The translations under genes were made by a program, and so were the position numbers. A DNA stretch of 64,000 nucleotides from NCBI GenBank assembly GCA_033065855.1, contig JAVXUO010000146.1:124001-188000 (forward strand), given 5' to 3'. Under the pieces are notes generated by a model, which was given only the letters and a program-made list of their open reading frames with translations, had not been told where the DNA came from and ran no database searches. The DNA comes from Escallonia rubra (lineage: Eukaryota; Streptophyta; Magnoliopsida; Escalloniales; Escalloniaceae). Positions 4,467 to 58,145 of the stretch are shown in pieces (the first letter of the stretch is position 1; each line of letters starts with the position of its first letter).

Positions 4467-5985
4467 AACTTTGGTCCAATACCTTGGAGTGCCCCTAATC
4501 TCCACCAAACTACAGTACAAAGACTGCAAGGTCCTAGTGGAGAAGCTAACAAAAAGAATATCATGTTGGTCTACCAAGTCACTATCATATGCTGGGAGAC
4601 TGCAATTGACTATATCTGTATTGAGCAGTATGTATATTTACTGGTGTTCACTTTTCATCCTTCCTAAGAAGATCATTGCACATATAGAAGGGAAGCTAAG
4701 AGCTTTTCTCTGGCATGGGAAAGACATCAAGTGTACAGGGGCTAAGGTTGCATGGAAGGACCTCTGTCTACCTAAACAAGAAGGAGGTCTAGGTATCAAG
4801 AGAGTGGAAGAATGGAATAAAGCTGCTATTTGTAAGCACTTATGGGATCTAGCTCATAAGAAAGATTCACTTTGGGTGAAATGGTGCCACATTTTCATAA
4901 TAAAGAATAAGCACATATGGACCTTTAAACCACTTGTATGCCTATCATGGACATGGGGGAAAATTCTGAAGATTAGAGATATGTTCAGTAAGTATATGTA
5001 CTATAAGGTGGGGAATGGAGAGCTCATATGGCTGTGGTATGATAGATGGATGTTGGAGGTCCCTCTAATTGAGCATTATGGACAAAGAGTAGTGTATGAC
5101 TCTGGTCTACCTCTTAATGCAAAGGTAAAGGACATTATTCAGAATGGTATTTGGAAACAATTACCTGGCAGATCAGAGGAGCTAAAAAGGGTTAACACTT
5201 TGTTAACCAATTTAAGTGCTCCTAATATTCACCATCAAGATCAAATCATATGGAAACTCAGCCCTAATGAAGATTTTAGTATCAAAACAGCTTGGGAAGA
5301 GATAAGACATATAGAAACTAACACTGCATGGTGGAAGTTGGTTTGGTTCAAGGGACATATACCAAGATGTGCATTGATTTTATGGCTACTGTGCAAAGGG
5401 GGACTAAGGACCAAGGCCAAATTAAAGACTTGAATGTTATTCAAGAGGATAAATGTGTAATGTGCTAGGAACATTCTGAGACAGATGATCATTTATTTGT
5501 ACAATGTTCATTTGCACAGAGAATATGGGAAGAAGCATTCAATAAAATGAAGATGCATATACCTTTAATCTCATGGCAGCAGCTTCTAGGAGATATAACA
5601 ACCAAATACAGGGGCAAAAGCTTTCAAGCCAGATTATGTAAACTACTAGTTGTTGTGATCACCTATGGGGTGTGGATGGAAAGGAACACTAGAATATTTG
5701 AAAACAAGCCACAGTGGAAGGATGTCTACAGATGATAAAGCAATGAATGAGTTACAGAACATCTAGCTGGAAGAAATCCTACTATACTGATAGGAACAAT
5801 GCACTATGTCAAGCTTGGGGACTAGACACCAGTAATGTTTTGTTAGATTGATGTACATAGCATTAGAATATACTCTACCATGAGGAACTGTGCATAAAAG
5901 GAGACTAGATTGTAAATGTTGTTTGAGCTTAAATGAATACAAAGGACCTTTGATAAAATAAAAAAAACAAAAACTTTGGTCCAAT
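4467..5985 (+). mobile_element. 5'-truncated L1-type LINE with 14-bp target-site duplication
   Basis: The element proper is 4481-5971. It is bounded by an exact 14-bp direct repeat, AACTTTGGTCCAAT, at 4467-4480 and 5972-5985. It starts inside the reverse transcriptase (YLGVPL, then the thumb/connection region with AGRLQL and FLWHG), continues into the zf-RVT region (KVGNGELIWLWYDRW) and ends with an A-rich tail at 5955-5971. The main frame stops at 5431-5433. Homology resumes out of frame at 5463-5735 (CEHSETDDHLFVQC, then VWMERNTRIFENK), so at least one frameshift and one stop break it. The 5' truncation, A tail and target duplication are the signature of target-primed reverse transcription. 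The element is dead. Confidence 0.93.
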
Positions 5986-7495: not shown

Positions 7496-9452
7496 TCATG
7501 AAGCAAGTTTCCCATCAACAAGTACTTTCTTGATTCCAGCTTTCTGCTCCGCTGTTAACCTTGTTGGGAACTTAATGTTGAACTTGATCCGCAAGTTTCC
7601 CCTCTTTGATGGTTCTTTTGGTATTGGCATTCCTTCTCTTGGAACCACCTCTTCGTAGTTTGGGTGAATCACATTGTTGATGGGAATTGTCAGGGTCCTT
7701 CCATCTAGTGTTGTGATACGAACTGTGTAGCCCGTCAATGCATCAGCAAGCGATATCTTCTGCGTAACAACAAGATCGTTTCCGTCCCTCGTGAACACAC
7801 TATGTGGTTTCTCATCAACCTTAAAAATAAGATCCGCTGGGACGACGTTTGGTTGCTCGTTTCCCTTCTCTGGGAAGGTTATTTTCGTTCCCTTTTTCCA
7901 GCCAGGCTTGATGTCAATGGTTAAAATCTCCTCTACCGGCAAAGTCCTCCTGCAAGACAGAATATATTGCCATGTCAGGAAACTAAACCATGAAATCACT
8001 CGTCGTTTACCGAATATATTACAATGTTCAAGTTTCTAAGAATTTAAAAGCATGTAAGAATCTGATTATCTTCCACTTTTTCTCTATATCCTTTCCATTA
8101 ATAGCAAGGTAGCCTAATCAGCCACACAAGACTGATACTTCAGCATACTAAGAAGTGTCCAATCCAGCATTTTCTTAGCAGCGCCTCAGTTAAAGGGCTA
8201 CCTACCAAACAAAGAATGAACAACTTAACTAACTTCTTCATGTTATATCAGATGTTACTCTTGTAAGCAGAACTAAAGTCTAGCCCCATCAGTCAAGATC
8301 AAATTGAGGACATATTCCCCTTGCTTACCAACAATAGTTGTTTTCGAGATCAAACAAATAACGCTTGCCCGAAAGCATTCCTATATGATGCATGCTACTG
8401 CACTTTATGCAGACCATATAGCAGAGAAATAAACAAAAGAGAAGATGTTTTTTGTTTAAGCATATTCATTAATGGCAGATATCATGAGCAAGTTTTAGCA
8501 TGGGACATCACCAGGTTAGTAAGACAATAAACCAACTGCCAAGTACATCATTCACAAGCTTTCTTAGATACAAACTTCCAAAATCTTGAGTGATGTACTT
8601 AAGATTTGCTGCAGGTATTGCATCCAACAACAAGTACTTCACTAAAAGCTCATTACTTCCTTATATAAAGGTTAACGCAGGCAATAAAACAAGGAATCCC
8701 TAACACTAGAATGAATAATCTTTTACGATGATACCAAGTTGCCAAAGAAAAGAAACTTTATGAATTAAGTGTGCAAGTAAAAGAATTGAATAACAACTAC
8801 TTACCCACTTGCATCCGCTATTTCCCTGGAGATCTTCATCTTCTTAGTAGTACCCTTGTAGAGTTCCTCTAGGCTACAAGGCAATGCATTCTCAATTGGA
8901 GGCGCCTTCCGAGGACCTGAACTCATTGGCCTGCTCTCCCCAAATGAACTGAACATATCATCTCCAAACATTCCACTAGAGAATCTTGAACCACCCCTCA
9001 TGCTGCCTCCGCCGCCACCTCCCATGCCCCCAAAAGGACTAGAAAACCCAAAGAACTCTGTAAAAATGTCATCAGCATTTCTGGGATTAAATCTGAAAAC
9101 ATTTGGTCCTTCTCCTGTTTGGAAGAACGACGCCCCACCAGGGCCCCCAGCATCCGGTGGTGGCACTTGGCCTTTTAGCCCTTCTTCACCATACTGATCA
9201 TACACCTGTCTCTTCTGAGGATCACTTAGAACCTTCGAAAACAAAGAAAAAAGAGTTATCATCGACTTCCAAAGATTAAGATGTCAAGAAAAACACGCTC
9301 AGAGAAACCCGCAACACAAATCACATATGGAATGAAAGATCTCTGAGCTACAAATATGGGTAATTTGGGTGGTCTTAAGAACAAAAGAGCCATATAGTGC
9401 AATTCTTAGAGCCAAATTGTGATCTCTGTTATCAATAAACAAAATCAAGCTC

Positions 9453-9487
<35 letters not shown>

Positions 9488-9999
9488 TACATTCACACAA
9501 ACACATATATGGATATACACATTCCACACATGCACACACAAGATACATATCAACTGTGAAACTCTTTAAAGAGTTGTAAACATCTCTGACAATTAATACA
9601 AACATTCTGGGTGGTTTAAAAATAGGCATAAAGTAGGTGATCTTCGAAGGGTTGCCTTCTGTTAGTCCATAGCACTTTTAAACTTTAGCTCCTAATCCAA
9701 TTTCAAGAAATGGGCAACCCAAAAAAAATGCGAAGGAGCAAGAATCTAAGAATCCCATATCTAATCTACTTGCACAATCAAGAACTCTGACCAACCCTGA
9801 ACTACAAACGTTGATTCGAATATGAAATAGATACCTCGTATGCTTCAGAGATCTGTTTGAATTTGGCCTCAGCTTCTTTCTTGTTGTTGGGATTCTTGTC
9901 AGGGTGCCACTTCATGGCAAGCTTTCTGTAAGCCTTCTTCAATTCATCATCTGTGGCATTCTTGTCGACCCCCAACACTTTGTAATAATCCACACCCAT
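7496..9999 (-). CDS. Type II (class B) DnaJ/HSP40 co-chaperone
   Basis: This cytosolic J-protein stimulates the ATPase of Hsp70 and delivers clients to it. Three exons on the minus strand join in frame: 9999-9835, 9232-8805 and 7949-7496, giving 348 residues, the usual size for the family. The start is [20 protein letters not shown], with the HPD motif at residues 32-34. Exon 2 has the Gly/Phe-rich linker ([15 protein letters not shown]) and then the start of C-terminal domain I ([20 protein letters not shown]). Exon 3 completes the substrate-binding domains ([36 protein letters not shown]) and ends VDGKLAS. There is no CxxCxGxG zinc finger and no CaaX box, so it is class B and not farnesylated. 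All introns are GT-AG. It resembles Arabidopsis DNAJB1-like proteins such as At4g28480 from memory. Confidence 0.95.
9453..9487. repeat. Compound (GT)n(GA)n microsatellite
   Basis: About nine GT units run directly into about eight GA units, within the first intron of the DnaJ gene. Confidence 0.95.
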
Positions 10000-10189
10000 C
10001 TCCTCTGCTCTGCTAAAACTCTTGATTCCTCTGTGTGTGTCTGTGTGCTGTTTAGAAATTGATTGATCTGTGGTGGTGCACCCACTGGTCGTTGTTGAGA
10101 TGAATGAAATTGGGCAATGGGGAAGAATGAAAAAATAAGGGAATACAGAGAGATCTGTCGGGAAGCTGAGAAAGTACGAGAAGGGTGTG

Positions 10190-10201
10190 GAAGGTTCCGG
10201 A
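10190..10201 (-). promoter_or_regulatory. Heat shock element-like site upstream of DnaJ
   Basis: GAAGGTTCCGGA fits alternating nGAAn units (GAA..TTC..GA) and lies about 190 bp upstream of the DnaJ start codon. Further GAA and TTC units follow (TTTCGCGG, TTTCTTTC). Class B DnaJ genes are commonly heat-inducible through HSF binding. The site is seen in the sequence; its function is inferred. Confidence 0.5.
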
Positions 10202-10225
10202 GTTTCGCGGATTTCTTTCTAGCGT

Positions 10226-20060: not shown

Positions 20061-20100
20061 CTAGTTTTAATCTCGTGCGTTGCACACGAAAGCGACGTGT
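20061..20100 (-). mobile_element. Helitron 3' terminus (minus strand)
   Basis: Read on the minus strand, this ends in CGTGTGCAACGCACGAG, then ATTAAAACTAG followed by host T. A GC hairpin (CGTG/CACG) roughly ten bases before CTAG, followed by T, is the canonical Helitron 3' end. It nearly matches the end of the complete element at 21733. No matching 5' end could be assigned. Confidence 0.6.
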
Positions 20101-21732: not shown

Positions 21733-22923
21733 CTAGTTTTGATCCCGTGCGTTGCACATGGGAGAAGAGGCACTTTGAGAACTTAGAATCATCAAAATAA
21801 TGTAAAAATCACATTGAGTGAAACAAATAGGGACGTTTTTGAAAAAGGTGCTAACATAGAAAACTAAATTAAGCATATTTCTGTAGGCATATAAAATCAT
21901 CTAAGGTATCGAAGTAATGAAAAATAACAAAGAGAACCAACCAAACGTATAAAACCAAATATAATATGAAAATATTGAAAGGTCAAAGAAATTTCAAAAT
22001 AGGACTGGTGCTCCTACATTTTGATGAAACTATTAGCAATCGACAACTGGAACTACTTTATTTTTTTGAAGCGTATGATATTAAACAAATATAAGAAATT
22101 GTTATATATGATTGACTATCCAGCTTGAAGATAAAATTTTTACCAAAACAACCTCCTTTTTTTGCATATTAGAATGAATCAATCTCTCTATTTGCATATA
22201 CTCAATAAATGGTGAAATACAATAACAAAAATATGAAAAGAGTGAAGGTTCAAAAAGAGTCTTTATATACATATATATCAAGAAAAAGAATGATAGATTA
22301 TTATGCTACCTCAAATGTTAGTAATCTATGCTGACAAATGGTGATTACCATAGGTGATTGGAGAGTTTTTTTCAGTGTAAACTTTTAAATTGTTATTTTA
22401 GAAATATGTAATCAATCGGGTTTAAAATGAGAGAGATTTAATCTGATTGTAATCTAATCTAATTATATATCAAAAAAGAAAAAAATTAACGAATTAAAAG
22501 GAACAAAAAAATGATTAATCTTAAAAATACATGAAATTAAAGCAAACATGTAATAAATTAGCTTAAATATCTAGCAATGATGATAGAAAAGAGAGTTTCA
22601 AGTAAAGAAAGGGAGATATTTAAGGAGAAAATATGACAAAATTAAAGTGATGAGAAAAATTAAAGTCAAAATAAGGAGATAATTTAGGAAAGGAAATCAT
22701 AAATAGGGACGTTACATATAAATAGAGATGCGAACATGTTGGAGTTTGTGAGAGAGATTGAAAAATGATAAAGACTTAAAACATGTGACAAAAAGAGTAA
22801 AAATAATTCGTAATAAATTAAAAATTCATTATCCATGTGGCAGAAGGAGAGAGTGTTCACGTAGGACATGACGTTGCTACTTTCTCTCAGTTTCAGCTTT
22901 CATATATATATAATTAGATTAGA
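21733..22923 (-). mobile_element. Non-autonomous Helitron with both termini
   Basis: On the minus strand the element starts after a host A at 22924 with TCTAATCTAATTATATATAT (22923 downward). It ends with a GTGC/GCAC hairpin (CCCATGTGCAACGCACGGG), then ATCAAAACTAG at 21733, followed by host T. The 5' TC, 3' hairpin plus CTAG and insertion between A and T are the Helitron hallmarks, and there is no target duplication, as expected. The 1,191-bp interior is AT-rich and has no Rep/helicase coding, so it is non-autonomous. A second, plus-strand copy of the 5' motif (TCTAATCTAATTATATAT) sits inside at 22453, which suggests nesting or a chimeric origin. Confidence 0.75.
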
Positions 22924-24466: not shown

Positions 24467-25360
24467 AGCATTGTTGCCGAGGAAAGTTGGTTCGCATGCC
24501 ACGTGAGGTGCCACAAAGGATGCAGTCTGCGTTGGCTTCCAGCTAGGCAAAGTGGGAGACAGCAAGGATGGAGTAAGGGCTGAGAGCAAGGCTCCCCAGA
24601 CAGGTCGCGAGGGCTGGCAGCGCCGCGTAAGCAGGGAGACGACGAGCAGGGGCGACAGTCAACAGCCGACAGTCCGCGTCAAGGGTGCAGCGTCAAGAGT
24701 CCGATGACAGGAGTCCAAATGTCTTTCTCTCACTAGAAATCCAGAGAGAATGAGCTCTAGCAAGAGAAAGTGAAATGTCCAAATGAGAGAGAAGTCCTTG
24801 AATAAGCTCCAGAATTCACTATATATAGGCACAAATATGCGCGTGTCATCAGCTGACACGTGTCGTCCTCCGGGAGTGACACATCGCCGTAAGGGGTCCT
24901 GCGGTATCGATCGTTCGTCGGATATGCCGGCCCCCGAGTTCGTGCCGCCCTGCCCTTGCAGCGTCCCTCTGCCTGTCTGAGGAGACTGACCACACTGCGG
25001 TAGCATGGTCAGAGTAGCCCATTGCCCCAGCCTCCAGTCCAAGCCCTTACTGAATCCCACGAGATGCGTCATGAGACGCGCAGAGATCCTGGCAGCGGTG
25101 AGGGTTGCCCCTGCAGCCAACTGCCAGGCGTGCCGGACGCGATGCCCTCCGAGGACCTGCTCCCGTCCCGGAGTGACCCGCGGTTCATTGCCCTGACGAC
25201 GTCGATGATCAACGGTGATATGAGCGCACATGCTCACAGCTCGATGCTTAGAGTCCGTGGCGGGGCATCCTCGTGCTGGAGCACTACGAACGGAGCCCCC
25301 AGAAGCCTGTCGGTTGGTTGTGCCGGCGATGGCCTTAGGGTCGTGAGCCTATCCCCGTGG

Positions 25361-25525
25361 CGAAGGCCGGAGCCTCCGGTTGATTGCACCTGCGAGGGCC
25401 GGAGCCCGTCGGTTGATTGTGCTGGCGAAGGCCGGAGCCTCCGGTTGATTGTGCTGGCGAAGGCCGGAGCCTCCGGTTGATTGCACCTGCGAGGGCCGGA
25501 GCCCGTCATTTGATTGAGCCGGCGA
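25361..25525. repeat. Tandem repeat of about 34 bp inside the solo LTR
   Basis: About five imperfect units contain GGCCGGAGCC and GGTTGATTG, alternating between two variants (TCCGG or CGTC after GGAGCC). Confidence 0.85.
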
Positions 25526-25671
25526 GGGCTTAAGGGTTGCGAGCCCGTCCCGCCGTGAGTTTGATTGAGCTGGCAATAATGACCGTCGCACTACTGAAGA
25601 TAGCGAGGGTGTGTTGTTGGAGCGAGAAGCTAGTGCCGTGCAGCAGATTCCCCCCTTCGCGGGGCAATGGA

Positions 25672-25758
25672 GGCCGACCCCCTTGGGGTGGCCGACCCCT
25701 TGGGGTGGCCGACCCCTTGGGGTGGCCGACCCCTTGGGGTGGCCGACCCTATTTGGGG
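25672..25758. repeat. 17-bp tandem repeat inside the solo LTR
   Basis: Five units of GGCCGACCCCTTGGGGT; the first and last differ slightly. Each unit contains the near-palindrome ACCCCTTGGGGT. Confidence 0.95.
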
Positions 25759-25919
25759 GGAGAACACCTTTGATCGCCGTCCGGATGCTCGAGGCGCGGA
25801 GTACTTTAACCGAGCAATCTTGTTGAGCGATGTTGACCGCCAAATGGGTGACGTGTAGCGCCACTAGGATCTCTTAGCGGGCCCCAGGGTGCGGTCCAGA
25901 ATAGGTTGTGAACAAGCAT

Positions 25920-28558: not shown

Positions 28559-28612
28559 GAATAGGACCATCACAATGTGTTACCACTTGACACTCTTACC
28601 CATATCCCTTCA

Positions 28613-29824
28613 ATGGCTTCCTCTGCCAAGCAATTTTCTGCCCTCCTCTTCCTCTTCACCCTCTCATCCTCTGTCCTTGTTCATGGCAGAGACAGCCAGT
28701 TCTTCAGCAAAGTCACCAACAACAATGGCAACAATGCCCAAGAAACCCTAGTTGTTCCCAACAAGGAAGTTACCACCTTCACCAAGCAAGCGCAAGAAGA
28801 GCCTGTTTCCGCAGCAGGAACCCAGAATGGCTATGGCCTCTATGGCCATGAATCTGGCCAGTTGTCCCCCACTGCCACCAAAACCACCGCCACTACCACC
28901 ATCACCCCCCAGGAGCCCTTCAAGAAGTTTAACCCCAACACTAAAGCCTATGAGCCCTTGGACAAATTTGAGCCTGATGCTAAAGCCTACGAGCCCTTGG
29001 ACAAGTTCGAGCCTGACGAATTTGACCCTAATTCCAACACCAATCTCAACGATCTCTACAAGAATGATGCTCATGTGACTGATCAGCCACAAGGTATGAG
29101 TGACACAAGGAGGAGTGACAACAGTTTCAGTGGCGGCAATGGCATGTACAACCTCAAGGAGCAACAAGGCTACACCACCCCAGTCAACAACTACAACAAT
29201 GGCGGCAATCTGTACAACTCTGAGAAACAAGGTGCGAGTGACACGAAGTTCATGGCCAGAGGGTACACTACTCCAATCAGTAGTGAGAACAGTTACAGTG
29301 GTGGCAATGGCATGTACAACCTCAAGGAGCAACAAGGCTACACCACACCAGTCAACAGCTACAACGATGACAGCAGTCTGTACAACTCTGAGAAACAAGG
29401 TATAAGTGAGAACAGTTACAGTGGTGGCAATGGCATGTACAACCTCAAGGAGCAACAGGGCTACACCACCCCAGTCAACAGCTACAACAATGGCGGCAAT
29501 AATAATGGCATGTACAACCTCAAGGAGCAACAGGGCTACACCACCCCAGTCCACAAGTACAACAATGGCGGCAGTCTGTACAACCCTGAGAAGCACGGTA
29601 TGAGCGACACAAGGTTTTTGGAGAATGGAAAGTACTACTATAACCTTGAAAGTGAGAAGTATAATTTCAACGCAAATGCCAACTCAAGGGGTTTTGAGTC
29701 AAGGGATCAGTACTTCCCCACAAACCAGGGGCGTTATGGGAACGGTGAGAACTACGAGTTCAACAATGGAAACTCATACCAAGAGGAGTTCCAGGGTAGC
29801 CAAGGTGATCAGTACAATCCTTGA
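28613..29824 (+). CDS. E6-like secreted repeat protein
   Basis: This is an intronless 403-residue protein starting MASSAKQFSALLFLFTLSSS with a clear signal peptide ending near VLVHGRDS. The mature part is hydrophilic, rich in Asn, Tyr, Gly and Ser. It contains a duplicated AYEPLDKFEPD block and four copies of GMYNLKEQQGYTTPV separated by Asn/Gly/Tyr linkers (NSYNNGG, SLYNSEKQG). The C-terminal region GMSDTRFLENGKYYYNLESE is the hallmark I remember from cotton fibre protein E6 and E6-like proteins, which are secreted and expressed in fibres and elongating tissue; their biochemical role is unknown. An in-frame GTG lies upstream at 28577, but the ATG at 28613 starts the signal peptide and follows a TATA box at the right distance. 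The repeat number may vary between alleles. Confidence 0.88.
   Translation: MASSAKQFSALLFLFTLSSSVLVHGRDSQFFSKVTNNNGNNAQETLVVPNKEVTTFTKQAQEEPVSAAGTQNGYGLYGHESGQLSPTATKTTATTTITPQEPFKKFNPNTKAYEPLDKFEPDAKAYEPLDKFEPDEFDPNSNTNLNDLYKNDAHVTDQPQGMSDTRRSDNSFSGGNGMYNLKEQQGYTTPVNNYNNGGNLYNSEKQGASDTKFMARGYTTPISSENSYSGGNGMYNLKEQQGYTTPVNSYNDDSSLYNSEKQGISENSYSGGNGMYNLKEQQGYTTPVNSYNNGGNNNGMYNLKEQQGYTTPVHKYNNGGSLYNPEKHGMSDTRFLENGKYYYNLESEKYNFNANANSRGFESRDQYFPTNQGRYGNGENYEFNNGNSYQEEFQGSQGDQYNP
29140..29580 (+). repeat. Coding tandem repeats of the E6-like gene
   Basis: Four units share GGCATGTACAACCTCAAGGA and the following CAACA(A/G)GGCTACACCAC. The near-identical DNA between units suggests recent duplication by unequal exchange. 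Confidence 0.9.
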
Positions 29825-36800: not shown

Positions 36801-37386
36801 TTAGGTGAAAAGAAGTGTGATCTAACACGACTCACAGTGAATTCATTTTCTCATGCACCACGCATGATAGAAAGGTGACTGCACTAGCAAGCACAAGAGA
36901 TTATTGAACAAAAAAATAAAAGTAACTCTTGACTGTTTTGATTAGATGAAGTTTGGAAAGTAATATTTATGTTTCATATTTATTTTATCGTTTGAGCTCC
37001 ATTACGGACTCCAAAGCCATTAAGCTATCGTTACGTGCCTTTAAAATTATTGCCAAAATTGGGTGCTCAGCTATCGATACTTAGAACTTATTGCGCGTAT
37101 ATTTCGAGTCGTTAAAATTCATGTAGTATGTGTAACTAGGACTAGAATAAAAGAACTTCATTGACCTGCCACGGCTCTGACCGATCGGCCTTAACAGGAA
37201 CAATATAGGAAAGCTGGTATATAATCATGTCCTCTTTAGTTTTCACCTTGTAATAGCTCTTGCAATAAAGGTATCCCAAACTCATAGTCAGGTTAATCTT
37301 CCGTGATAAATTTCTATGGCATGTGTGCATCTCATAATCCATACATGATAGTAACCGGATATATTTAGTGCGAGTCGAACATATGC
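33858..37386. other. Gene-free sequence with a GGTGG-rich minisatellite-like island
   Basis: No gene recognised. A GTGGTGGTGG-rich island with ATGAATGGTGGTGG and GAGTGGTGGTGGTTG variants lies at 34658-34950. Short open frames there are by-products of composition. Confidence 0.5.
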
Positions 37387-38410
37387 TGTAACGCCCTGAA
37401 TTTTCGGAGCGTTAATATCAAATAAATAAATTAAAATATCTTAAAATATCAAAAAGTCTTTAAAGTGGTCATCCAGAGCATCTATTAATCCCTCCCTAAG
37501 ATACATTAATAAATGTCATAGCAGTCTAAAGCATTTATATAATCCAAATTACTCCGACACGGAGCTCCAAAATAAAATATAAACAAATTCAATTTGTCTT
37601 AATTATTACATCTAAAAATACTGATACTGACTCTGAGATAAAAACCGATAGTTCTCAGTCACACGGCTAGCCCTGAAATTCAATCTCACCTATTAAAAGG
37701 AAAACAATTAGGAAGTGAGTCAAATGCCCAGTAAAGTCACTCAACGGACCAATCAAAAGGAATATAAAAATGTCTGAGAAAACGAGATTACGGAGATACA
37801 GAATTTTAACGGAATAGATACCATACCTAATTTCAAAATGCAAAAATATATATCTGTATAAAAACAGACACTAGAGAGTCATTCAGAATAAGACTACACA
37901 TGCCATCATTGACACATGTAACCAGGTCCAGAAGATAAGGTCGCGATCTCTAACTCATCTCGCTGAACTAGCCTACGTTCTAATACACGTGAGTAAGTCA
38001 GAAACAAAAAAGTTACGTAGTACACTGTGACATGACTCAACGAATAAGCTACACACGTATAACAAATAAAATAGGCGAGACACCAATAAGTTACCTAAAC
38101 GATGTGAACTAATGAATGTCTCCCCAAAAGTTACGCAAAGTAATATTATAAAAACATATGTTGCTATTTACCAACGTTTTAAGTTTGATATTTCAAAAGA
38201 GTTCGGAATTCACAATATATCTCTCTACCTTAAAAGGCTAAAGTGTTTAGACATGTTTATGTGTTTCTACACATTCTCATCCCCAAAATACCCTCTAAAA
38301 TATCACATAACATCAATAATTAACACGAATAACCTGCCAGATTTCAAAAACGTCGCAACAACACACCTCTTCCGCCAGGCTCTCTCACTCCCCACCCGCT
38401 CAAGACACCC
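37387..38410 (-). mobile_element. Probable LTR (Ty3-type) fragment or solo LTR
   Basis: Read on the minus strand, the sequence ends in GGGCGTTACA at 37387, a common end of plant Ty3-type LTRs. The adjoining kilobase has the anonymous composition of such LTRs, including a GACTTTACTGGGCATTTGAC stretch. The other end is not defined (38410 is approximate), and no target duplication was found. Confidence 0.4.
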
Positions 38411-41400
38411 TTAAGCGGTGCCATGGTTTCAAAACAAACAGAACTTCTTTTCCACCAGGCTTTCTCAGTCCCCGTGCACACTTCGGCGTAGCCTCTACAA
38501 GGATTGCTTCGTTCTGTACTTCAAAGTTCTTCCTACAATAATTCATCCAATTCTTCATCTGCAGGTCAGTGTTTGCATAACACGATCGCATTTCGTGAAT
38601 CAATGAACGGAAACGCTCTGTTTGCGCTTCTGATTATTCTGCATTATACATTCTGTTGTTCAATGACGTTTATCTCTCGTTCATCCGATGACTACCCACA
38701 CATGAGATTGCATGCTCTGCGCCTCTACCGCCACCGCCACTTCTTCCTTATGTGTCTCCTACATGTTTTCGTCCTCTTTCACCATTGCATGCAAGGTGTT
38801 TGAAGATATGCAAATTGCCTTGTTGTGTCACTAATCACATAGGAAAAAGCAGATACGAATGATTGCAAAAAATTTAAAGCTTTGCTTGTGGTAGAAGGAT
38901 ATTATGCATTTCAAGACTCAAAATAAGAACCCACCCCAGTAACAGTAATGGAGACCTCATCCTAGATGCCAGTGTTCCTATCCCTGCATCAATAAAACGA
39001 TTATCATAGAATGTCTATTCTGAAATTTCTTTACTTTCATTCTGACCCATGTCCTACTTCCACATACCATTTTTCACATACTTGCTGTTTCCATGTCCTG
39101 CTGTTTCTACATAGGCCAGGTTGATGAGGATGTTGTTGGATCTGCGAGCTTTCAATCTAAATTCAGACAATTCAAAGATTGGGGGCCTAGAGTTGAGCAG
39201 GTTCAGTTATACTTAACAGAAAAAGGAAAACCATTAAGGGCCTAAATAGCGCATGATGTGGCATAGAACCCATCACATCGTTAGAAATATACCACAAGTG
39301 GTTACACTATATTTTACTGAATGTAAGACTTGGGTGAAATTACGAATTAACTAAGGTATAATTGTCTTTTAAAATGGTGTCGCCGATAGATATTATTATA
39401 CCTGGAAGCTTTTGAGTTCTAATTGATCATTGACGGGTTGTCCATGCCCATTTTTGATGTGAAGCAATTCTTCCTCAGGTTTTTATGTTCTTGGATAGAA
39501 ACACTTTGGCTGAGTGGCGACGTGTTACAGCATAGTGATTATGTAGATATACCAATTCTAGGCCAAAGTGATTGAGGCAGTGCATTACAGTGATGCGTTG
39601 TTCTTGGATAAAAACTCTGCTGCTTTATTGCGGCAGGGCATTACAGTGATTACTTTCAGGGTCCATTGGCCTAATCTAATCTGGTGTTGGAGTATATTTC
39701 TTATACTTCTTGGTTCATCTCAGCTTTTCACTATTTCTTTTCACATTTGTAGCTCTTCTTCAACGGCATGACCCTATGCCCGTGTAATTCATCTTTTCCA
39801 ACGCTATACTAGGCGCACTACAGTTATAGAGGTGGAATTTCAGACAGACTGGAAGGTAGGGGGACTGCGGGATATGATACTATAAAAATTAGCTATATTA
39901 CTGCCACAGAACGATATTAATCCACAAAAGCTGCAATAGAATCTGGGGTTCGGCGAAAAATCAACTATGTCAAAAGCGTGCCTATTCAAATGGACCACCA
40001 AATAAATAACAGTGCCCAGCCTCCACTGCTTTTGAGCCCTGATATCTACATACTTATTTTATATGCCCAAACCCAAGCTATTTGATCTAGACCTGAAACT
40101 CTGCAGATATTTTCTTTACACTCATCTACTCCAAGGTCATATGGCAAACTTGCTTAGAAAAGAACTTATATGATGGGCAAGTTGGTGATTAGAACACAGA
40201 GCTCTGTTTTGCAGTGCAAAACTTTAAGGTGGCAGCCTTGAAGATAAAATTAGTAAGGTACCTTTAACTGTAACCCTATACTGCAACTGGGCGAGAAAAT
40301 TGCCCAGGGCCATACCAAATTTGAACATGTTCCTTGGACTCTTTTCACGAAACTCGTGTACTCAATTAATATTGCTATTAGTATTTGTTTGTTCCAAGAT
40401 GTTATGTTACATACAGTTTCTGAAGCCCTATAGGCCACACTCATCAGATTATAATAGCTGTTAAATGAGGTTTTCCTAGGGCAGATTGTAGAGACAATAT
40501 TCTCTGGTGCTGATTGAATATCTACCTAGAAGTCCATACTAAAAGCCAGCTAGAAGAGGCTGCTAGAATTCGATAACATTCTATCGAACTCATGAGATTC
40601 TGAAAACAATTAAGAAAATCCAGAAGAAGGTGACTATAGTTCAAATTTCAAAGCATTGTGTGAATTAGCATTAATAGCTTATGTTCATCTACATGCCTCC
40701 TTATTCTCATCTCATGATTCTTGTTCAATTGGCTCTTCGAATATCGTGATTTCAGTTCAAGCTAAGTAGATCAAGGAGGTTTCTCGGGGTCTCATAAGTC
40801 CTATCCTTGCAATAATTACTGTTCACAAAGTACATCTCCCTAGGTTTCCTCTTGTTTGCAATCAGAAGAGCAGAACAAGAGAATCGTATTTCTACCTCAT
40901 ACATTGAAAGAAAAAACTGAGAGGAATAGTCAGTTGACATAGGAACAAGAACATAGATGTACATTACCAATTATGTCTCCTGTTAAGCAGTTGAATCTGA
41001 GGATGTTTGATTGCAAAAACAGCATAGCCGGATTCAAAATAAATAAACAAAAAGAGAAAGCAGGTCTGATTTCTAGAGGTTCACACGGCGATGGTATCAG
41101 ATGTTGATTGGCTCTTTAATAAATGTTACAAACTATCACGATAACGCAATAAAATGAATTACACAGAGTATTATATGCGAAACTTTGGATGGAACTTAAA
41201 GACTGCAAACCAATCCAGATTCAACAGAGGGAAACTTGTAACCATTCACGGTGACATCAACTCATTTAATATAAGCCTCAGGCCCTTTATATAACCACTT
41301 CTCTTGTTGATCTTGTTTCTTCTTAAAAGTTTCATTTCAAATGTGCTGGTTTACCACGCTCCAACTGAAGATCTTTTTCCCATTGGGATCAGTATCCACC

Positions 41401-43062
41401 GTATGTCCAGAAGTATTAATCCATTTCTGGAGTTGATAAGGTTGTACCTATCGTTCATACGGCCATTAAAGACTACATTGATGAGATTGACATCCATGTG
41501 CCCCAGAGATTCCTACATAGGGGACACTTTATAGTGACTTCGATTCCATGTAAAGATTCGTGGTACAAAATGACTAAGAACAAAGTGATGATTTTACCTT
41601 AGGCCTGCAGCCAATGCCGCTTCTTTTGCTCACGCCTTCAATGTGAATTCTGTCCTTCAGAGGAGCTTCTTCTAACAGAAACTGGAACTCCGAACAACGA
41701 ATTTAGTCAATTAGTCAATTTTGAATTGCTAGGCTATGTTTTTGATGTCTTGTAGAAGAGTTAGATTAGTTCTTTTAGATATTGCTATGTGTCTGTAATT
41801 GCCAGTTGCTCACCCCCTACAGAACATTTACCTTGAGGCTTTGATTTATTCACTTAATGAGTTGGGTGGTCACAATAAGGCATTACATCCTCGAGTCTTG
41901 CACATAATGGGAGTTTGCAGAAGACATCTTGATATATATTGAAAGTTAAAGTTGTAGGCAATAATACAAAGCTGGTTTGTTTTAACGCTCATTACGGTCC
42001 CTGAAGCATCATCTCCACAAGTGGTGCAGCACAAAACAAAATCATAATCAAATATATATAAGAGCCTGGACGTGGGCCTGCACCGTGTGTAAAACGGGTA
42101 TAATACTAATGTCATTCGTCCTCTAACGGTTCTACTCAGAATATAATGCGTTCTCTATCCTGGTCCTAAGTTTCCTACATTGGTTGGTGAAGGTTAAAGA
42201 CTATTTTTGTTTCCATAGTCAGCATCAATACAAGGAACATGCTTACACTAAAATACAGTAGATTATCTTCACTGTTTTGACAATTAGGCTAATAATTTGT
42301 TACTATGACCTTGAGAGTCTGTAGCATTTACAGCATTGCGTATACTTCCCACCCATCTTTATGACAGTTACCACGATTTTTTGAAATTTGTTGCACTATT
42401 TGTGAAAAGTTTAACAAGCAATGTGAAAAAGATTCAGAAAAAGGCCAATACTCAGTTATTTTATGACTACCAAACTTGAATCGTGGGGTTTGGAACATAA
42501 CTGCAAGAGAGAAAATACTGAAAATTGTCCTCATTGATGTTTGATATCGATTTTCTAATGTTGTATTTCGATTGACTACTTTGGAGAATCATAGCTTACA
42601 TTAATGATATTGAAGTCCTATTGTTATTATATGTTGTCGATTCAACATATTTTCTAACAGTTTTTGTGACTTGTCATGTGTTTTTCTGAGATGTGTCATA
42701 GCAACATAGTTCATATGCCATTAATGCAGCCAGATATAGCATATAAGTCCTCTGCACCGCTGGGGATCAATGTGTCTGATACATGTACCTCACAGTTTCT
42801 TGTGTATCCAAGTTAAGTTCTTTTAGTAGCAAGAATTGGATATGTTAATGTGTGCATGGGGTATAACCAGCGTTTACACATCCAAAAACAACCAGTTGTG
42901 GTATTATAGTCATTTGCAAGTTCATCATACATACAAAAACCATCCATTTGTTTAGTGTGTTAAATTTGATAGTTTTATGCAGCTTTTTGTGAATGGATTT
43001 ACTGCAACTTGACTACAGTTGCTGGAAAGATAAACCTCTAAATGTTTTGATAACTTTTGCAG
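38411..43062. other. Gene-poor region with small exon-like pieces
   Basis: No intact gene. A 66-codon frame from ATG 38603 has a hydrophobic start (NALFALLIILHYTFCC), and a 38-codon open piece follows an acceptor at 39118-39119 (VDEDVVGSASFQSKFRQF). Neither is recognised and they do not join in frame. The remainder shows nothing supportable except a Helitron-like end at 42050-42109. Confidence 0.4.
42050..42109 (+). mobile_element. Helitron-like 3' terminus (plus strand)
   Basis: An AT-rich ATATATATAAG segment is followed by a weak hairpin (CCGT...ACGG) and then GTATAATACTAA before host T. CTAA fits the CTRR rule. It is more degenerate than the terminus at 46412. Confidence 0.4.
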
Positions 43063-43143
43063 GAAGGGGAGCAATATGCGAAAAAAAATGGTATGCTATT
43101 TTTTGAAACTTCTGCAAAAGCAGCACAGAACACAATTGTTTTC
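43063..43143 (+). pseudogene. Rab GTPase exon fragment
   Basis: After a good acceptor (TTTTGCAG) the frame reads EGEQYAKKNGMLFFETSAKA, then AQN. It contains the ETSAK motif, the G5 guanine-base contact of Rab small GTPases; the wording is closest to Rab5/RabF and Rab2/RabB types. Similarity stops after AQN, where a Rab would continue N-[IV]-x-x-[AL]-F, and no neighbouring Rab exons (G1 to G4 boxes, prenylated C-terminus) are nearby. It is an orphan exon, not a gene. Confidence 0.7.
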
Positions 43144-43365
43144 AAGTATGGTGCTAACTGTGGGAGTCAGAGGTCTGCCTTATTTGAATTCCAAAAATGT
43201 TATGAGTGGTAACATGTTTATTAGACAAAGAGAGACTAAAAAATCTGTTGTTTTTGTCCTAAGCTGAAGTGATTAGTCAACTAGGCAACAACTTACAATT
43301 TCTGAGGTCCTTTCATGGTGTCATTCCTAGGCATTGGTGTTCTTTCTTCTTCATGTTTTACTATA

Positions 43366-43404
43366 GGCATGCATGCAAGCGTGCGTGCGTGCGTGCACAC
43401 ACTT
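43366..43404. repeat. Alternating purine-pyrimidine (GCAT/GCGT) tract
   Basis: GCATGCATGCAAGCGTGCGT continues as GCGTGCGTGCACACAC, an alternating purine-pyrimidine sequence with Z-DNA potential. Confidence 0.8.
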
Positions 43405-43927
43405 AAAAATGTTGTTAAATTCTTTTTGCATGTTTTGCTGAATTAGTATCTGAGGCAATTAGTAGTAACCATATGCTGCACTATTCAGGGTGCCAGGAGT
43501 TGGACAGATTGGAAAATAACTCCTGCGAAATTCAGATTAACAATATTGTTCAATATTATTAATCTGTTAATCTGTAAGTCAACATTTATGAGAAGCTCAA
43601 TGTAGGAGTATTTGATGAGACTGAAGAGCTCTTTCTATACAATTTTAGGGAGCAAATACTAAATAAAACGAATAACATTTAATCAGTTGCTGAAGTTGTT
43701 AAATAGGCCAGATATTGAAATTGAACATCCATTATATGGTTAGTGGCTTTGGCATGGGTGAGTTCAATATGTTCTGGTACTGCTGGACTAGCTGCATAAA
43801 TTCCACTGAATAATCAATGTCGAAACAATTCCCACAAGATGATGCTTCCTTTGTATCTTTCTCCTTTGCACTTTTCCTCTGTTTATTGTTTTGAGAAGGT
43901 CATTGCTATTTGACTTCTCTCATAACC

Positions 43928-44275
43928 TTTAAGAACTTTTACCTGTTGTGTGATGACGACCGTTGTATTGATATTGAACTATGCCCAAGATGTGAGAAAT
44001 TGAGGTTCGTCTATGATTACCCAACTGAGACTTGTCAAGCGAAAGATAATACGGCTGATGTGTGCAAGGCTTGCACACTCTGCATACAACGTTGTTTTCA
44101 ATGTGGCCAATGCATAAATGGCAGCGAATATGAAGAAACATTTTGTCTGGATTTGCTTTGTTCGAATTGTTCCAAGCAGCTACGTAAGTGCCAAGAGAAG
44201 TTGGATAGAAAGATTGGCTGTAGTGAGAAAACTGTTCATCATGAGCCCAGTTATAACTTCTGTCTACATGGCTAG
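43928..44275 (+). pseudogene. F-box protein SKIP14-like C-terminal fragment
   Basis: The frame reads FKNFYLLCDDDRCIDIELCP, then RCEKLRFVYDYPTETCQ, CKACTLCIQRCFQCGQCING, EYEETFCLDLLCSNC and ends SYNFCLHG with TAG at 44273-44275. The Cys-rich pattern (C..C pairs, then EYEETFCLDLLC) matches what I remember of the C-terminal region of SKIP14-type F-box proteins, which join SCF ubiquitin ligases. The N-terminal F-box and leucine-rich repeats are not found upstream. It could be an orphan 3' exon or a captured fragment; it lacks internal stops. Confidence 0.65.
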
Positions 44276-44818
44276 CTGCTGATATTTCTTGTTGCATACA
44301 GCCTTGTTTATGGATCACATTCCGTACCTGAAATCCGGTAAGAAAGTTTGATGCCGTGCTATGAAGTCATGGCTTGCTTTATGTGTCAGTATAGCTGTTT
44401 AAGCACACAGAAATGATAGAGAACCATTCCTTTTTTTAATTAGCAATCAACGGACCCTATGCTTGAAAAAAATACATATTCACCGAAGCATTTGTAGATT
44501 AAGGCTCATCTCTGTTACTTTCCTGGTAGCTCCGCTTCATCATAGTCCCTAAGATGCCTTCTACGTTTTGTTCGTACTTCGTCTATTATTTAGAATTTGT
44601 TTTTTTAGGCACCTATTACTCATTTATAATTTGGTACAGGGATCAAGAAGTGGTAAGTATGAACCAATCATTGAGAATTTTTTCAAACTTAGTAGCCGCT
44701 GATTCTATTAGTTCTGCTGGGTTACTTGATGAAATATTATGTGAATAGGAAATGGTCAATCAATTCCTTGCTTTCCTTCCCCAGCATCGAAGGTGCGTAG
44801 TGCACTATTCACTTTCAG

Positions 44819-45002
44819 TAAAGTAGTGTACACCGCCAACAAAGACAAGCAATACAGGGTCTTCAAGGAAGAGGTTAGGTCCCTAGCTTCAGAAGTGGCA
44901 GCAAAGCACTTAGCTAAATCATCATCTGCAGATCAACTTCTTGGCTTTACTGCTAGCGTGGTCCACATCAAAACATCTGATGGTTATGAATTAATGGCGA
45001 AG
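44819..45002 (+). pseudogene. Unidentified exon fragment
   Basis: This is an open stretch between an acceptor (CTTTCAG, AG at 44817-44818) and a donor (AAG/GTATGT). It encodes KVVYTANKDKQYRVFKEEVR, then SLASEVAAKHLAKSSSADQL and ASVVHIKTSDGYELMAK. The composition is that of a real, probably helical protein, but I do not recognise the family and no partner exon joins it. It sits between the SKIP14 and ent-kaurene oxidase fragments in the same orientation. Confidence 0.4.
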
Positions 45003-45203
45003 GTATGTCTCAACTGTTCTTCAAGAATATATTTTTTGAAGAGTACTATTGTTGGTTTAATTTTTATCCCCTAGGTACTCTGTTATCGGAGTTTTTATTA
45101 TTGTACCAAAAGAACTTTTTTATTTTCCGTAACACCTTTGGATGATTTCAATTACTGTTAACAAGCATGATTTTGGCAAAATTTGCAGTTAATACTGATG
45201 TTG

Positions 45204-45386
45204 CTATATTTTGTGCAAAGCTTTTCAACTTTAAAACAACTGCTAGATAACTGCAGAGTTAGTGGGAGCTCATACTTTATATGGTGGCAAAAGGGTGTTG
45301 TCTATATTTTGTGCATAGCTTTTCGGGTTGCCTCCATATATGTCAACATTTATATGGTGGCAAAAGGGTGTTGGTGCCATAGAGTG
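45204..45386. repeat. Local duplication of two short segments
   Basis: TATATGGTGGCAAAAGGGTG occurs at about 45279 and again at about 45352; TATATTTTGTGCAAAGCTTT at about 45207 recurs as TATATTTTGTGCATAGCTTT at about 45303. Confidence 0.8.
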
Positions 45387-45546
45387 ACTTAAATACAATG
45401 AGCTTATCTTGTTCGTTAACCACCGTAAGAAAATTTGTATATTGGCATTTCAACGAACTTGCGGAGGGTAGTCAAAGTGTAGTTGTGTCTTTTGATTCTT
45501 ACATCCATCACACTCATGTCAGTTTCTCTCCACGGAATTTTAAGAA

Positions 45547-46044
45547 AAGTATAGTCCTGCCCCAGTAATTCTTCTAAGATATGTGCACGAAGACACAGAG
45601 TTAGCAGGATACCATATCCCTGCTAGAAATAAGTTTGTACTTTTTCCCTTCTTAATTTGCTACCTTTTCCCCATTTTTTCTTACTTCCTTCGACCAGTTT
45701 AACACTTTAACTATGGAGTTGCTACATTGATCTGTGTAGATCGCTTAAACATGGACGACAAAGTATGGGAGCATCCTAAAGAATGGAGGCCTGAGAGATT
45801 TCTTGACGAGAATAATGACAGCGTAGATCTCTACAAGATGATGGCATTTGGAGGGGGAAAGAGGGTATGTGCTGCTGTGCACTCCAAACTATATATGTCG
45901 ATTTCTCGTATGGCAATCGGCAAATTTATACAAGAGTTTGACTCCTAACTCAAAGTTAGGGTGGAAGAAAATGTTGATACTTAAATACTTACGACTCAAA
46001 AACTTCATCCCAGCTGCTCTTGGCTACAACTTCAAATCTCAATG
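45547..46044 (+). pseudogene. Ent-kaurene oxidase (CYP701A) fragment, broken
   Basis: Two blocks match the C-terminal third of ent-kaurene oxidase, the P450 of early gibberellin synthesis. Block one (45547-45630) reads PVILLRYVHEDTELAGYHIP. Block two (45740-46044) reads NMDDKVWEHPKEWRPERFLD, then DLYKMMAFGGGKRVCA and MAIGKFIQEF. The heme-binding loop is FGGGKRVCAA, with Ala where the family has Gly after CA. A stop interrupts the frame at 45946-45948, after QEFDS, and again after ENVDT; similarity then continues with LTTQKLHP. The upstream two thirds of the P450 (membrane anchor, I-helix, most of K-helix region) are missing. It is a non-functional fragment. Confidence 0.85.
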
Positions 46045-46372
46045 ACAAGGATGGCGTCGAAGAAACGTTTGTACTAGAATTACAAAGAAATTTGATTTTA
46101 GTTTCAGGTGTAGTTGATACTACCTGCCTTTAACGAGATAGTTTGCTATCCAAAATTGATGTCGAAATTCTTAGATTTGTGAGGGTTGATTCTATTCTTA
46201 AGAGTAATGCCGGCTATTGTGTGATAATCAAACTTTTATTAGATGCTCTTTTCATCCCTAATGCTGGTTGTTTCAATATATATACCCAACATTTGCTGTA
46301 CTATTCTGTGAAAAGTAATATTACGATACCTTCCTTTTTAATGGACTATTAAGTAAGATTGATCAATATATA

Positions 46373-46412
46373 TAGAAAATAATCCACGTGCAACGCACGT
46401 GCACACAACTAG
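46373..46412 (+). mobile_element. Helitron 3' terminus closing the gene-fragment cluster
   Basis: After an A the sequence reads TCAATATATATAGAAAATAA, then TCCACGTGCAACGCACGTGC (hairpin CACGTGC/GCACGTG-like) and ACACAACTAG, followed by host T at 46413. Hairpin plus CTAG before T is the Helitron 3' signature, and the core GTGCAACGCAC is shared with the ends at 20061 and 21733. The AT-rich TC-start could itself be a 5' end, which would make a 40-bp element; more likely it is part of the 3' region. Confidence 0.65.
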
Positions 46413-49008
46413 TGGGACTAAAAGTCGAAGATGACAAGATAACCAACTGACTTTGGCACGAAAAAACTAAAAACTAAGGAGTAATATTTCAATCTGATTG
46501 TTAGCCCAGTCTGCTTTTCCATTGAAAAACTACAGAAATGAAAAAGGAGGTTTTTATAAAGAAACTAAACTAGCGGTTTGGATGTAAGATCAAATGGAAA
46601 AGCATTAGGGTAGCCAAAAAGGAGATATTAGAAAAAGGATTCAGGTGCGTCAACATCAAAGCAATAATAAGTCTCTTGTCTCGGGAACTCGATCCACCAC
46701 CCTTGAATCCGAAGATAACCGCTGCAGTAATCTAAACTGTCACTTTAAGCGATCCTTAGAATTGATACCTCGCTGCAACTCTTCCACTTTGTTACCATTC
46801 GATCTGAATTTTGTAAATTCAACAATGGTAATACTTATCCTTTTCAATTTATGTCAAGGCCATGTTGGCCGTATGTTTTTGCTCAAGTTTGTGTTTTTCT
46901 TGTTGTTTGTACTTGTTGCTTGTACTTTGTGTCTTTTTTATGCCGACTTCAAAGAAAAACATTTTCATGCCTTGACTATGAACCACCTTTTGAACAAAAA
47001 AAATCTCATGGTGGCTCACTTGAACCAATTAGTCAATGAATAATTCTACGTACATACAGGTGTGCAATCAAATCAAATTCTCAAAGTATTAGTCAGATGG
47101 AAAATAAAGGAAAGGTCCACGACAGAACTAAAGTAGCGTGAACATGTTGGAATTCTGGCAGAGGGCCACGCAGTTTAACGAAATTGACAGGGAAGACTTT
47201 AACGAGTACCAATTGATTGAAATCAAGGAAAGCAAAGAGAAACATGATTCAAATTTTCTTTTGTTTATTGGAAAAGACCAATCAAGTCCAATAATTCAGA
47301 GCCAATGAAATAAACCCTTACAAACATTAAATTGATCGGTCCAACGCTGATTTAAATTTTAAAAAATAATAACCCTTATCTCAGTTGTGCAAAATTCCCA
47401 ACACAGTTCTCATCACGGAGTTTCCCAATATGTTCCAAACAATACTAAATTCAATCACCAAAAAGTCAGGGCTTTAAGGATCTTGCTTCTAGATAAATCC
47501 TAATTCAAGAATCAAGCCTCTTACCTTAAATTTCACGCCAAAAGTCTGTTGCGAATGAGACTATATTGTTCTTCTTTCTGTTCTTCTCATAAGCCCAAAA
47601 GTAAAAGTAATGATACTTATAAGCCACCTAAACACTAAATAAAATTTGCTGAATATATTTTTTTAAAAATACCGATCACGTCCCTTAACTTATCTAAATT
47701 TGCAAAAATGGGTTTAAGCTGAGTCCAATCACATACTGTCACTAGGACTCCATCATAAATCGTTTCAATAACATTAAACAATAAAATTAGTCCATCAATC
47801 AAAGTACTAGAATGTCAAATCTATACCCATCAGGTCAAATTAGTAAAACTTAAGCTCAAAAAAATTTTGAGAATAAAATATTAATTTCACCAAAATCCAA
47901 AATTTTGGGGTATTCCGTGTGCTATGTTCAACTTTTTACAGCTCAGTCTCCTTTGTCCCAATGATTGGGTTTCGTATCATTGCGCGGTGAGGTAATTTCC
48001 GATGTACAGGAAAATCATAGACAAGTCGTATGTTTTTCTTGTAAGGATTGTATAAAAGTCATAAACTTTTGCGCGTAACACATTGAGATTGTTTGAGAAG
48101 CTGAGTCACCAACTTCTAATTTCAATCACATCGATAATGTCATAATGATTAATGAAGGAGTTCTTTTGCTCTCCCACCACCCCGTTTCGTGTGGACTACT
48201 CCTACTTTGCTCGCATCTATTACGGCTTTTGCTTTCTTTCTCTTTGGCTTCTAAGATATTTCAATTCACTAAAGTTGTCTTTTACCCGCCAGTAAAATCA
48301 AGTTGGCCTATTCGAGAATCTCCAGATCTATGCTCATTTTTAATTCTCCGACCTAATAAGGAAAAGGATAGGTACAACTCGTTCGCGAACAGCCAAACGA
48401 GGCAAATTTGAGTTATCATACAATTTCAGATCGTATTTAGGCCTGGGAATGAAGAACCAAAATTCAAAAAGAAGGAACATAAAGTATACCTTAATGTATG
48501 AACCTCCAGAGTGAGACCACATCTAACCACATTGTGCCCAATAGGAGCCAGATAAGAGCCAGATAACACAATCGTGACTACAAAACAATGAAACAAAGCC
48601 CGTAAAAGCTCCTACAGCGTAGTCAAATTTAGCCCATGAGCTTTCCGGAGTCATGGATGTGGACTCCACGAATAGCCCAATCATCATGTACTTTTTATTA
48701 GAGTATATAAAGCTGTATTGTCTAACAGGATCCGAGACCTTCTGTTTTGTAACACTTTTGCTGTAGCAGTTAAATATCGTTAAATGCGTTTCAGCAAAAA
48801 AAAAAATTATCACTACTAATTTTACTAGCAACAACACTTATATCGACTATCTTATGGTGCTAAAATTGTTACATCGGGATCCTTGTCTACTGAAATGGTG
48901 ATTAAAAATTTCCGGGATAGGCTCAAAACTTATAGCCATCGCCTATCATCATTAATTAAGGGCTTCAACCTGTCCCGGGAGGGCTAAAACCTACAGCCAT
49001 GCCGTTAA
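46413..49008. other. Gene-free intergenic sequence
   Basis: No gene recognised. At 46825-47010 a T-rich stretch with an ACAAAAAAAA run could be an old retroinsert 3' end, but no duplication was found. Confidence 0.45.
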
Positions 49009-49836
49009 CAAAATATACTTATATCCATTGACCAAATTGAATCTTAAAAAATATAACGGTTTTGAGAAAATGGGCTTGGCCTTGTTACCGGGATGGCTCA
49101 CAAATGTCATACCATCGCCGTCTAATCAAAACCTTTTTCTCCTCGTAGGATGGCCACAACCTTATACAATCGCCACCCACCAAGGTCAGCCTCCACCCTC
49201 CCCAGAGATGGGTCACCATACCTCTACCCACCCTCCCACACCCATTGTTGCTCCCACACTTCCACCCCACGTTCTGCCCTCACCTTCTTCCACCCCGAAG
49301 TTGTTGCCCCCACCTTCCGCTACCCCGTCGCCAATACCCCCACCTCACTCCATCGCTGCCTGCCCTCACCCTCCCCAACCCCGTCGCGGCCTGCCTCCAC
49401 CCTTCCGCTACCCTGTCGCCGTCCCCATCCTCCTCGTCTCACTCGCTGGCTTTGCATACTTTTTCATTGTCAGTGTTTGGCTTTTGAGAAAACACAACCA
49501 ATGAAATTTGCTTCTTGTTAATTGCTATTAGAGAGACCCTAATTTAGAAATTAGGGTTAAAACTTTAATTTGGAGAGAGCGAATTATGTTTGAAACCCTA
49601 ATTTTTCAAATTAGGATTTTTAATCTTTACACAGTGTATGTGTATATACGGTATAAGGGTAATACTGACATTTAAAAAATACGCATGGATTCATTTGACA
49701 GAAGTACATTACAGATTGGACAGATTCTTCAAGGCTATATTTTCACTTTTTGATCATGATATGTTACATTTGAAACTTTGTATCATTAACTGTAATTTTA
49801 CCCTAACCTCGAGAATATTGTTATAATTATCCCTTA
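49009..49836. mobile_element. Degenerate long-TIR element related to 57047-58136
   Basis: The left arm (ACTTATATCCATTGACCAAA, then TATAACGGTTTTGAGAAAAT) matches the reversed right inner arm of the 57-58 kb element (CACTTGTATCCATTGACCAA, then CCTAACGGTTTTAACAAAAT). The right arm (AACTGTAATTTTACCCTAAC) matches its right outer arm. The interior has a CCACC/CCCTCACC-rich block at 49190-49440 and an AAACCCTAATTT / AAATTAGG inverted pair at 49540-49617, both also present in the relative. Open frames inside are composition artefacts. Confidence 0.65.
49190..49440. repeat. C-rich imperfect repeats
   Basis: Repeated CCCACC, CTTCCGCTACCC and CTCACCTTC motifs with strong C bias on the plus strand. Confidence 0.7.
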
Positions 49837-57720: not shown

Positions 57721-58145
57721 TAACCCGCGGCTGACCATACACCTGCAAACACGCACGGCGGAAAAAATGGTCTGCCGGCAGTGGGTCCTTAGATTCGGAG
57801 CTTTTTGCAGCTGGGTTATGGTTGGACCAGCTTTGATTTGTGTATAGTGGTGGTGTGGGTGGGTCGATCGGCGGTGGGGCGAGGGAAGGGGCTGCCTGCC
57901 GGCGTAGGGAGAGGGGAGGGGGCTGCCGGCGTGGGAAAGAGAAGTGTAGAGAGAATTTAAGATAATGGCAATTGAAATAAATAGATTTGTAACTTGAGGG
58001 CAATAAAGTCATTTTGTTAAAACCGTTAGGATTTTTAGGGTTCCGTTTGGTCAATGGATACAAGTGTAATTTGTCCAAACTATTGTCTTTGTCTGTAATT
58101 ATACCCTAACCTCAGGGATATAAGTGTAATTTGCCCAAAAAGAAT

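Follow-up and report, generated by a model that had tools for sequence, protein, structure and literature searches.

Introduction

Helitrons of plants, those of maize foremost, are described as carrying pieces of unrelated genes upstream of their 3' ends (PMC3288121, PMC2575219, PMC5030654). According to the sections of the maize work cited here, helA Helitrons hold 0 to 12 gene fragments each, with a mean of 3, and 28.7% of them have multiple termini; in a sample of 100 internal 3' termini, 99 were without an intact CTAG (Dong et al., PMC3288121). The Helitron in the Brassica napus BnSP11-1 promoter is reported as a non-autonomous element of 3.6 kb that runs from TC to CTAG between A and T, with a hairpin near its 3' end and truncated gene pieces aboard (PMC5030654, in the part cited). 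For the bat element Helraiser, the cited portion of the source describes capture by read-through, in which the 3' terminator is bypassed and flanking DNA is transduced up to a new downstream terminator (PMC4778049). Here, we describe a 64,000-nt stretch of the Escallonia rubra genome (GCA_033065855.1, contig JAVXUO010000146.1, positions 124,001-188,000, forward strand), referred to as the window, in which a Helitron-type 3' end stands downstream of four protein-like gene pieces.

A preliminary description of this DNA had proposed that the four pieces, each said to have no partner exons, were captured by a Helitron ending in a hairpin plus CTAG. We find that the 3' end is well supported and that the locus is probably a plant Helitron of the non-autonomous kind, with fragments of several genes aboard. 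The kind of event is well known; what is new is two companion termini, a candidate 5' end, and a possible worn terminus. All coordinates are window positions, with 1 as the first letter. The window has a GC content of 38%, and the chance level of patterns and folds was gauged on shuffled sequence, with the number of shuffles stated for each result.

Results

A Helitron 3' end at position 46412

A Helitron 3' end lies at 46385-46412 on the forward strand. This terminus, CACGTGCAACGCACGTGCACACAACTAG, comprises a hairpin (46385-46401), a 7-nt spacer, and CTAG (46409-46412), and a T adjoins it on the 3' side at 46413. It thus shows both the CTRR end flanked by T and the GC-rich palindrome of about 16 to 20 bp that mark Helitron 3' ends: the palindrome is 17 nt long, with a 7-bp stem and a 3-nt loop when folded as single-stranded DNA, and CTAG follows 7 nt on. 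The gap between hairpin and CTAG is often quoted as 10 to 12 nt (PMC4683698, PMC3288121), and the helA search pattern allows 6 to 8 nt (PMC3288121), as the passages cited from these sources have it; the gap of the 46412 terminus is shorter than the quoted range but falls inside the helA range.

The terminus sequence has a single match in the window at up to 3 mismatches and none in 100 shuffles, and its fold (z of -3.79) is equalled by 1 of 200 shuffles. These results establish as real the hairpin-plus-CTAG terminus of the preliminary description. The high-quality 3' pattern of HelitronFinder, in the form given in the cited part of Du et al. (PMC2267711), has two matches, one at the 46412 end and the other at 20088 (-), and 4 of 60 shuffles contain any. 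An ad hoc hairpin scan ranked the 46412 end first of its 4 matches, and five one-strand shuffles gave 0 to 2 matches each. The exact 3'-end patterns had 0 matches each in our prokaryote and virus contig collections, which says little because these collections hold only prokaryotes and viruses.

Two companion termini with the same core

The 12-nt core of the terminus, GTGCAACGCACG, is found three times in the window, at 46388 (+), 21757 (-), and 20085 (-). When one mismatch is allowed, the count remains at three against a shuffle mean of 0.09, and none of 100 shuffles reached three. All three core copies fit exactly the pattern GTGCAACGCACG-N9-CTAGT, of which 200 shuffles held not even one instance, the 9-nt spacing having been entered in the pattern only after it was observed. 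The threefold occurrence of the core with exact spacing, together with its absence from the shuffles, therefore indicates a repeated Helitron 3' end. The two companion 3' ends, at 21733-21757 (-) and 20061-20085 (-), each consist of the core, N9, and CTAGT, and they lie on one strand, 1.67 kb apart. We infer that the three termini represent one Helitron family and differ in wear.

For the 21733 end, a possible 5' start chosen by eye lies at 22918 or 22923, at a distance of about 1.19 kb. Our literature searches returned no report of the core string GTGCAACGCACG together with Helitron and nothing further useful on dicot Helitron ends.

Gene pieces upstream of the terminus

All four protein-like pieces share the forward strand with the 46412 terminus. 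The piece nearest the terminus is a broken P450 C-terminal part at 45547-46014 (+), which probably consists of two adjoining parts in their proper order, with about 90 bp between them, and is followed by a stretch with two in-frame stops. An open reading frame (ORF) at 45703-45948 matches Pfam PF00067 (P450) at E 2.4e-13 over profile positions 360-412, the interval 45745-45945 matches Pfam P450 at E 4.3e-12, and the ORF retrieves P450 chains from PDB with a best E of 2.2e-07. The front piece, starting at 45547, weakly matches P450 profile positions 335-359 (E 0.028). Judging by these profile positions, the region 45547-46014 probably holds two neighbouring P450 parts in order, split by an intron or an insertion, and the statement that no piece has partner exons was too strong for P450. 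We take the piece to resemble ent-kaurene oxidase, and we likewise presume the placement of its tail past the first stop. A literature search found no case of Helitron capture of ent-kaurene oxidase.

The most upstream piece is a Rab-type GTPase exon piece at 43063-43140 (+), with an acceptor-like TTTTGCAG just before it and an approximate 3' limit. A stretch of 23 residues in it corresponds to positions 126-148 of Pfam PF00071 (Ras family), with E values of 0.0012 (25 residues) and 0.0036 (43063-43185) that are both under the curated cut-off, and its PDB match is the Rab-like GTPase Ypt51 (E 0.00083). The Pfam-scanned ORF at 43034-43267 is in a frame other than the Rab frame.

Between these two lie a cysteine-rich C-terminal piece at 43928-44275 (+), open to a stop, and an exon-like piece at 44819-45002 (+), set between acceptor-like TTTCAG and donor-like GTATGT. 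Neither matches a Pfam family above cut-off; the best PDB match of the former has an E of 1.3, and the latter has 0 PDB matches at E up to 10. The cysteine-rich piece is presumably SKIP14-like. The names SKIP14 and ent-kaurene oxidase are not told apart by any library used. Similarity to protein families thus gives family-level support to two pieces, P450 and Rab, and of the four pieces named in the preliminary description these two hold at that level (E 2.4e-13 and 0.0012), while the two finer names stay as assumptions; its third piece keeps the acceptor- and donor-like ends and has no family match above cut-off. The splice-like borders suggest that the captured material would be genomic DNA, not cDNA.

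Upstream of the candidate 5' end described below, an exon-like open stretch at 39115-39245 (+) is possibly another captured piece; it has no Pfam match, and its best PDB match has an E of 1.4. Weak matches, among them those to Fer4_4, Gag_p24, CTV_P33, Stc1, EbsA, SelB-wing, and DUF4952, were put down to chance or low complexity.

Candidate 5' ends

The best candidate for a 5' end, a weak one, is the TC at 42042 or 42048, within 42042-42064 (+), where A is followed by TC, an AT-rich run, and AAGAG. Such matches are common by chance. An element that starts at 42042 would be 4,371 bp long, and one that starts at 42048 would be 4,365 bp long. A rival candidate at 41927-41945 (+), an A and then TCTTGATATATATTGAAAG, is equally weak. 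The starts at 41927, 42042, and 42048 are each preceded by A, and none stands above chance. The helB 5' pattern of Dong has 8 window matches against a shuffle mean of 4.4. Pairing of TC starts preceded by A at 34.0-46.2 kb (+) with those at 20.1-30.0 kb (-), 25,785 pairs in all, singled out no one 5' end.

A possible worn terminus at 42109

A possible worn (pseudo) Helitron 3' terminus lies at 42082-42109 (+) and is recognized by sequence pattern only. Its sequence, ACCGTGTGTAAAACGGGTATAATACTAA, followed by T, resembles the helA 3' end and has CTAA in place of CTAG. The worn-terminus pattern, picked after the site had been seen, occurs once in the window, and 4 of 200 shuffles contain one. If genuine, such a terminus would be in keeping with capture in steps or by read-through.

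Coding and repeat content of the region

Among 83 of the 107 window ORFs of at least 82 aa, none matched a Rep, helicase, or RPA family, and neither did any of the other window ORFs scanned. Of the 24 ORFs outside these 83, 4 were scanned separately and 20, which overlap other ORFs, were not; at 37-48 kb, the scan covered 29 of 34 ORFs of at least 60 aa, and shorter ORFs elsewhere were not scanned. Any Helitron at the locus therefore looks non-autonomous, and an autonomous Helitron is disfavoured.

No long, well-matched repeats that bracket the region were found at 37000-48000. Among the 25 of 26 inverted pairs listed, none exceeds 33 nt; that pair has 73% identity and does not enclose the gene pieces. 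Direct repeats reach at most 25 nt. The pieces are flanked by some imperfect inverted pairs of 14-23 nt (for example 37475/46236 and 39320/47882), a size expected by chance.

Other features of the window

A multi-exon DnaJ/HSP40-type gene lies at 7496-10218 (-), with matches to DnaJ (E 2.9e-24) and DnaJ_C (E 5.5e-34), and a LINE-type fragment with a zf-RVT match (E 2.5e-08) lies at 4459-5433 (+). An ORF at 773-1465 (+) has a weak WSD/DDT-type match that is under cut-off (E 0.00093). The ORF at 28565-29824 (+) encodes 419 aa with repeated GGNGMYNLKEQQGYTTPV units and has no Pfam match; we take it to be E6-like. GC-rich tandem arrays with units of 32 nt and 17 nt occupy 25358-25780, against the 38% GC of the window. 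A 65-nt repeat is present at 49008-49072 and 58010-58074 in opposite orientations with 82% complementarity; it adjoins proline-rich-coding low-complexity DNA, and perhaps one small element is present here twice. Scanning the window for Rfam families and for tRNAs gave 0 matches each.

Discussion

The explanation that we favour, a non-autonomous Helitron with cargo from several genes, would place the 3' end of one element at 46412 and its 5' TC end somewhere before the Rab piece, with 42042 and 42048 as possible positions. The cargo would be genomic DNA with intron sequence from at least two, and probably four, unrelated host genes, gained over several transpositions. The element would have moved by means of Rep/helicase from another element and would have inserted between A and T. 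Of the capture proposed in the preliminary description, the 3' end holds firmly, as one of three ends that share a core; that all four pieces belong to one element is, like the 5' end, the A/T insertion, the genomic nature of the captured DNA, and the order of capture, something that we infer.

The locus resembles maize helA, as presented in the cited parts of PMC3288121 and PMC2267711, in its CTAGT end, in a very similar hairpin core that has AA at its centre, in the presence of several gene fragments per element, and possibly in multiple termini, with internal 3' ones that have no intact CTAG. It differs in one stem pair, which is CCCGT/ACGGG in helA and CACGT/ACGTG at 46412, and its 5' sequence is unmatched by the maize patterns run. 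The BnSP11-1 Helitron, in the account cited from PMC5030654, resembles the locus in its 3' hairpin and CTAG, in its truncated gene pieces, and probably in being non-autonomous with a TC start and a site between A and T; it is defined as an insertion at both ends, in contrast to the candidate 5' end at this locus. Read-through capture has been shown by experiment for Helraiser (PMC4778049, in the portion cited), whereas the worn terminus at 42109 makes it a possibility here.

Several results weigh against the favoured explanation. The looser helA 3' pattern, taken from the cited part of Dong et al. (PMC3288121), whose stricter pattern was not run, has 0 window matches, because one stem pair differs on both sides (C..G to A..T) with pairing kept. 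The medium HelitronFinder pattern gives 21 matches against a shuffle mean of 13 and is therefore little informative. The hairpins of the companion ends vary in quality: the 21733 end folds weakly (z of -1.10, equalled by 27 of 200 shuffles), and the best fold of the 20061 end takes another stem (z of -1.83, 14 of 200 shuffles). The 42082-42109 site has a fold z of 0.47, with 139 of 200 shuffles folding at least as well. At the 5' side, neither of the maize patterns tried, the helA one of Dong and the high-quality one of Du, has a window match, the loose pattern that catches 42042 and 42048 has 4 window matches against a shuffle mean of 2.95, and among the 25,785 start pairs the candidates at 41927, 42042, and 42048 rank 5th, 12th, and 339th. 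For two of the four gene pieces no family match exceeds the cut-off, that of the Rab piece falls short of the curated one, and the front P450 piece retrieves a non-P450 chain first from PDB (E 0.087), with P450 at E 0.24. Compared with maize, rice and Arabidopsis are also reported to show gene capture much less often (PMC2575219, as far as the cited text goes).

A first alternative, which we regard as unlikely, accepts the Helitron 3' end and limits the element to part of the region, with the other pieces coming from older nested Helitrons or unrelated duplications. It draws on the 5' end, which is not established, on the possible worn second 3' terminus at 42109, and on the two same-core termini of the reverse strand, separated by 1.67 kb, whose proximity makes nesting plausible in the window. 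Against it, all four pieces share a strand with the 3' end and fall within 42.05-46.41 kb, and no second terminus with the GTGCAACGCACG core stands between them.

It is rather doubtful that the capture occurred in place by read-through, with an older terminus at 42109 bypassed, the 46412 end taking over, and 4.3 kb with the four pieces transduced. Under read-through, a further pair of this sort would be formed by the ends at 21733 and 20061, which lie on one strand at a distance of 1.67 kb.

Capture of the gene pieces by a Pack-MULE, CACTA, or LTR element is highly improbable. Gene fragments also occur in other plant DNA transposons, such as soybean CACTA elements (PMC1947982, in the part cited), and the short imperfect 14-23 nt inverted pairs do flank the pieces. 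The repeat scan, however, yielded no long arms, neither the terminal inverted repeats of a Pack-MULE around the pieces nor the terminal repeats of an LTR element, which argues against both, and the Helitron terminus would need a separate account. A CACTA element, for which short terminal inverted repeats are expected, is unlikely, with no search aimed at its end motifs made.

Least probable of all is that ordinary degenerate pseudogenes or genomic debris lie next to a chance palindrome, for although hairpins before CTRRT are not rare (5 found against a shuffle mean of 1.5, with 45 of 60 shuffles containing any, in a count of perfect 7-bp stems with gaps of 8-14 nt that leaves out the 46412 end and its gap of 7), a GC-rich terminus with two same-core companions is not expected by chance, and the shuffles (0 of 100 with the terminus, 0 of 200 with GTGCAACGCACG-N9-CTAGT) reject a chance palindrome at 46412.

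For annotation, the main consequence is that neither the P450 piece nor the Rab piece should be listed as a gene. The possible worn terminus upstream, at 42109, would offer a plant case in which to test the read-through model. The presence of three 3' ends with one core within 64 kb suggests that a Helitron family is, or once was, active in this genome. Helitrons shuffle plant gene pieces and can yield chimeric transcripts, and this locus would be one more example.

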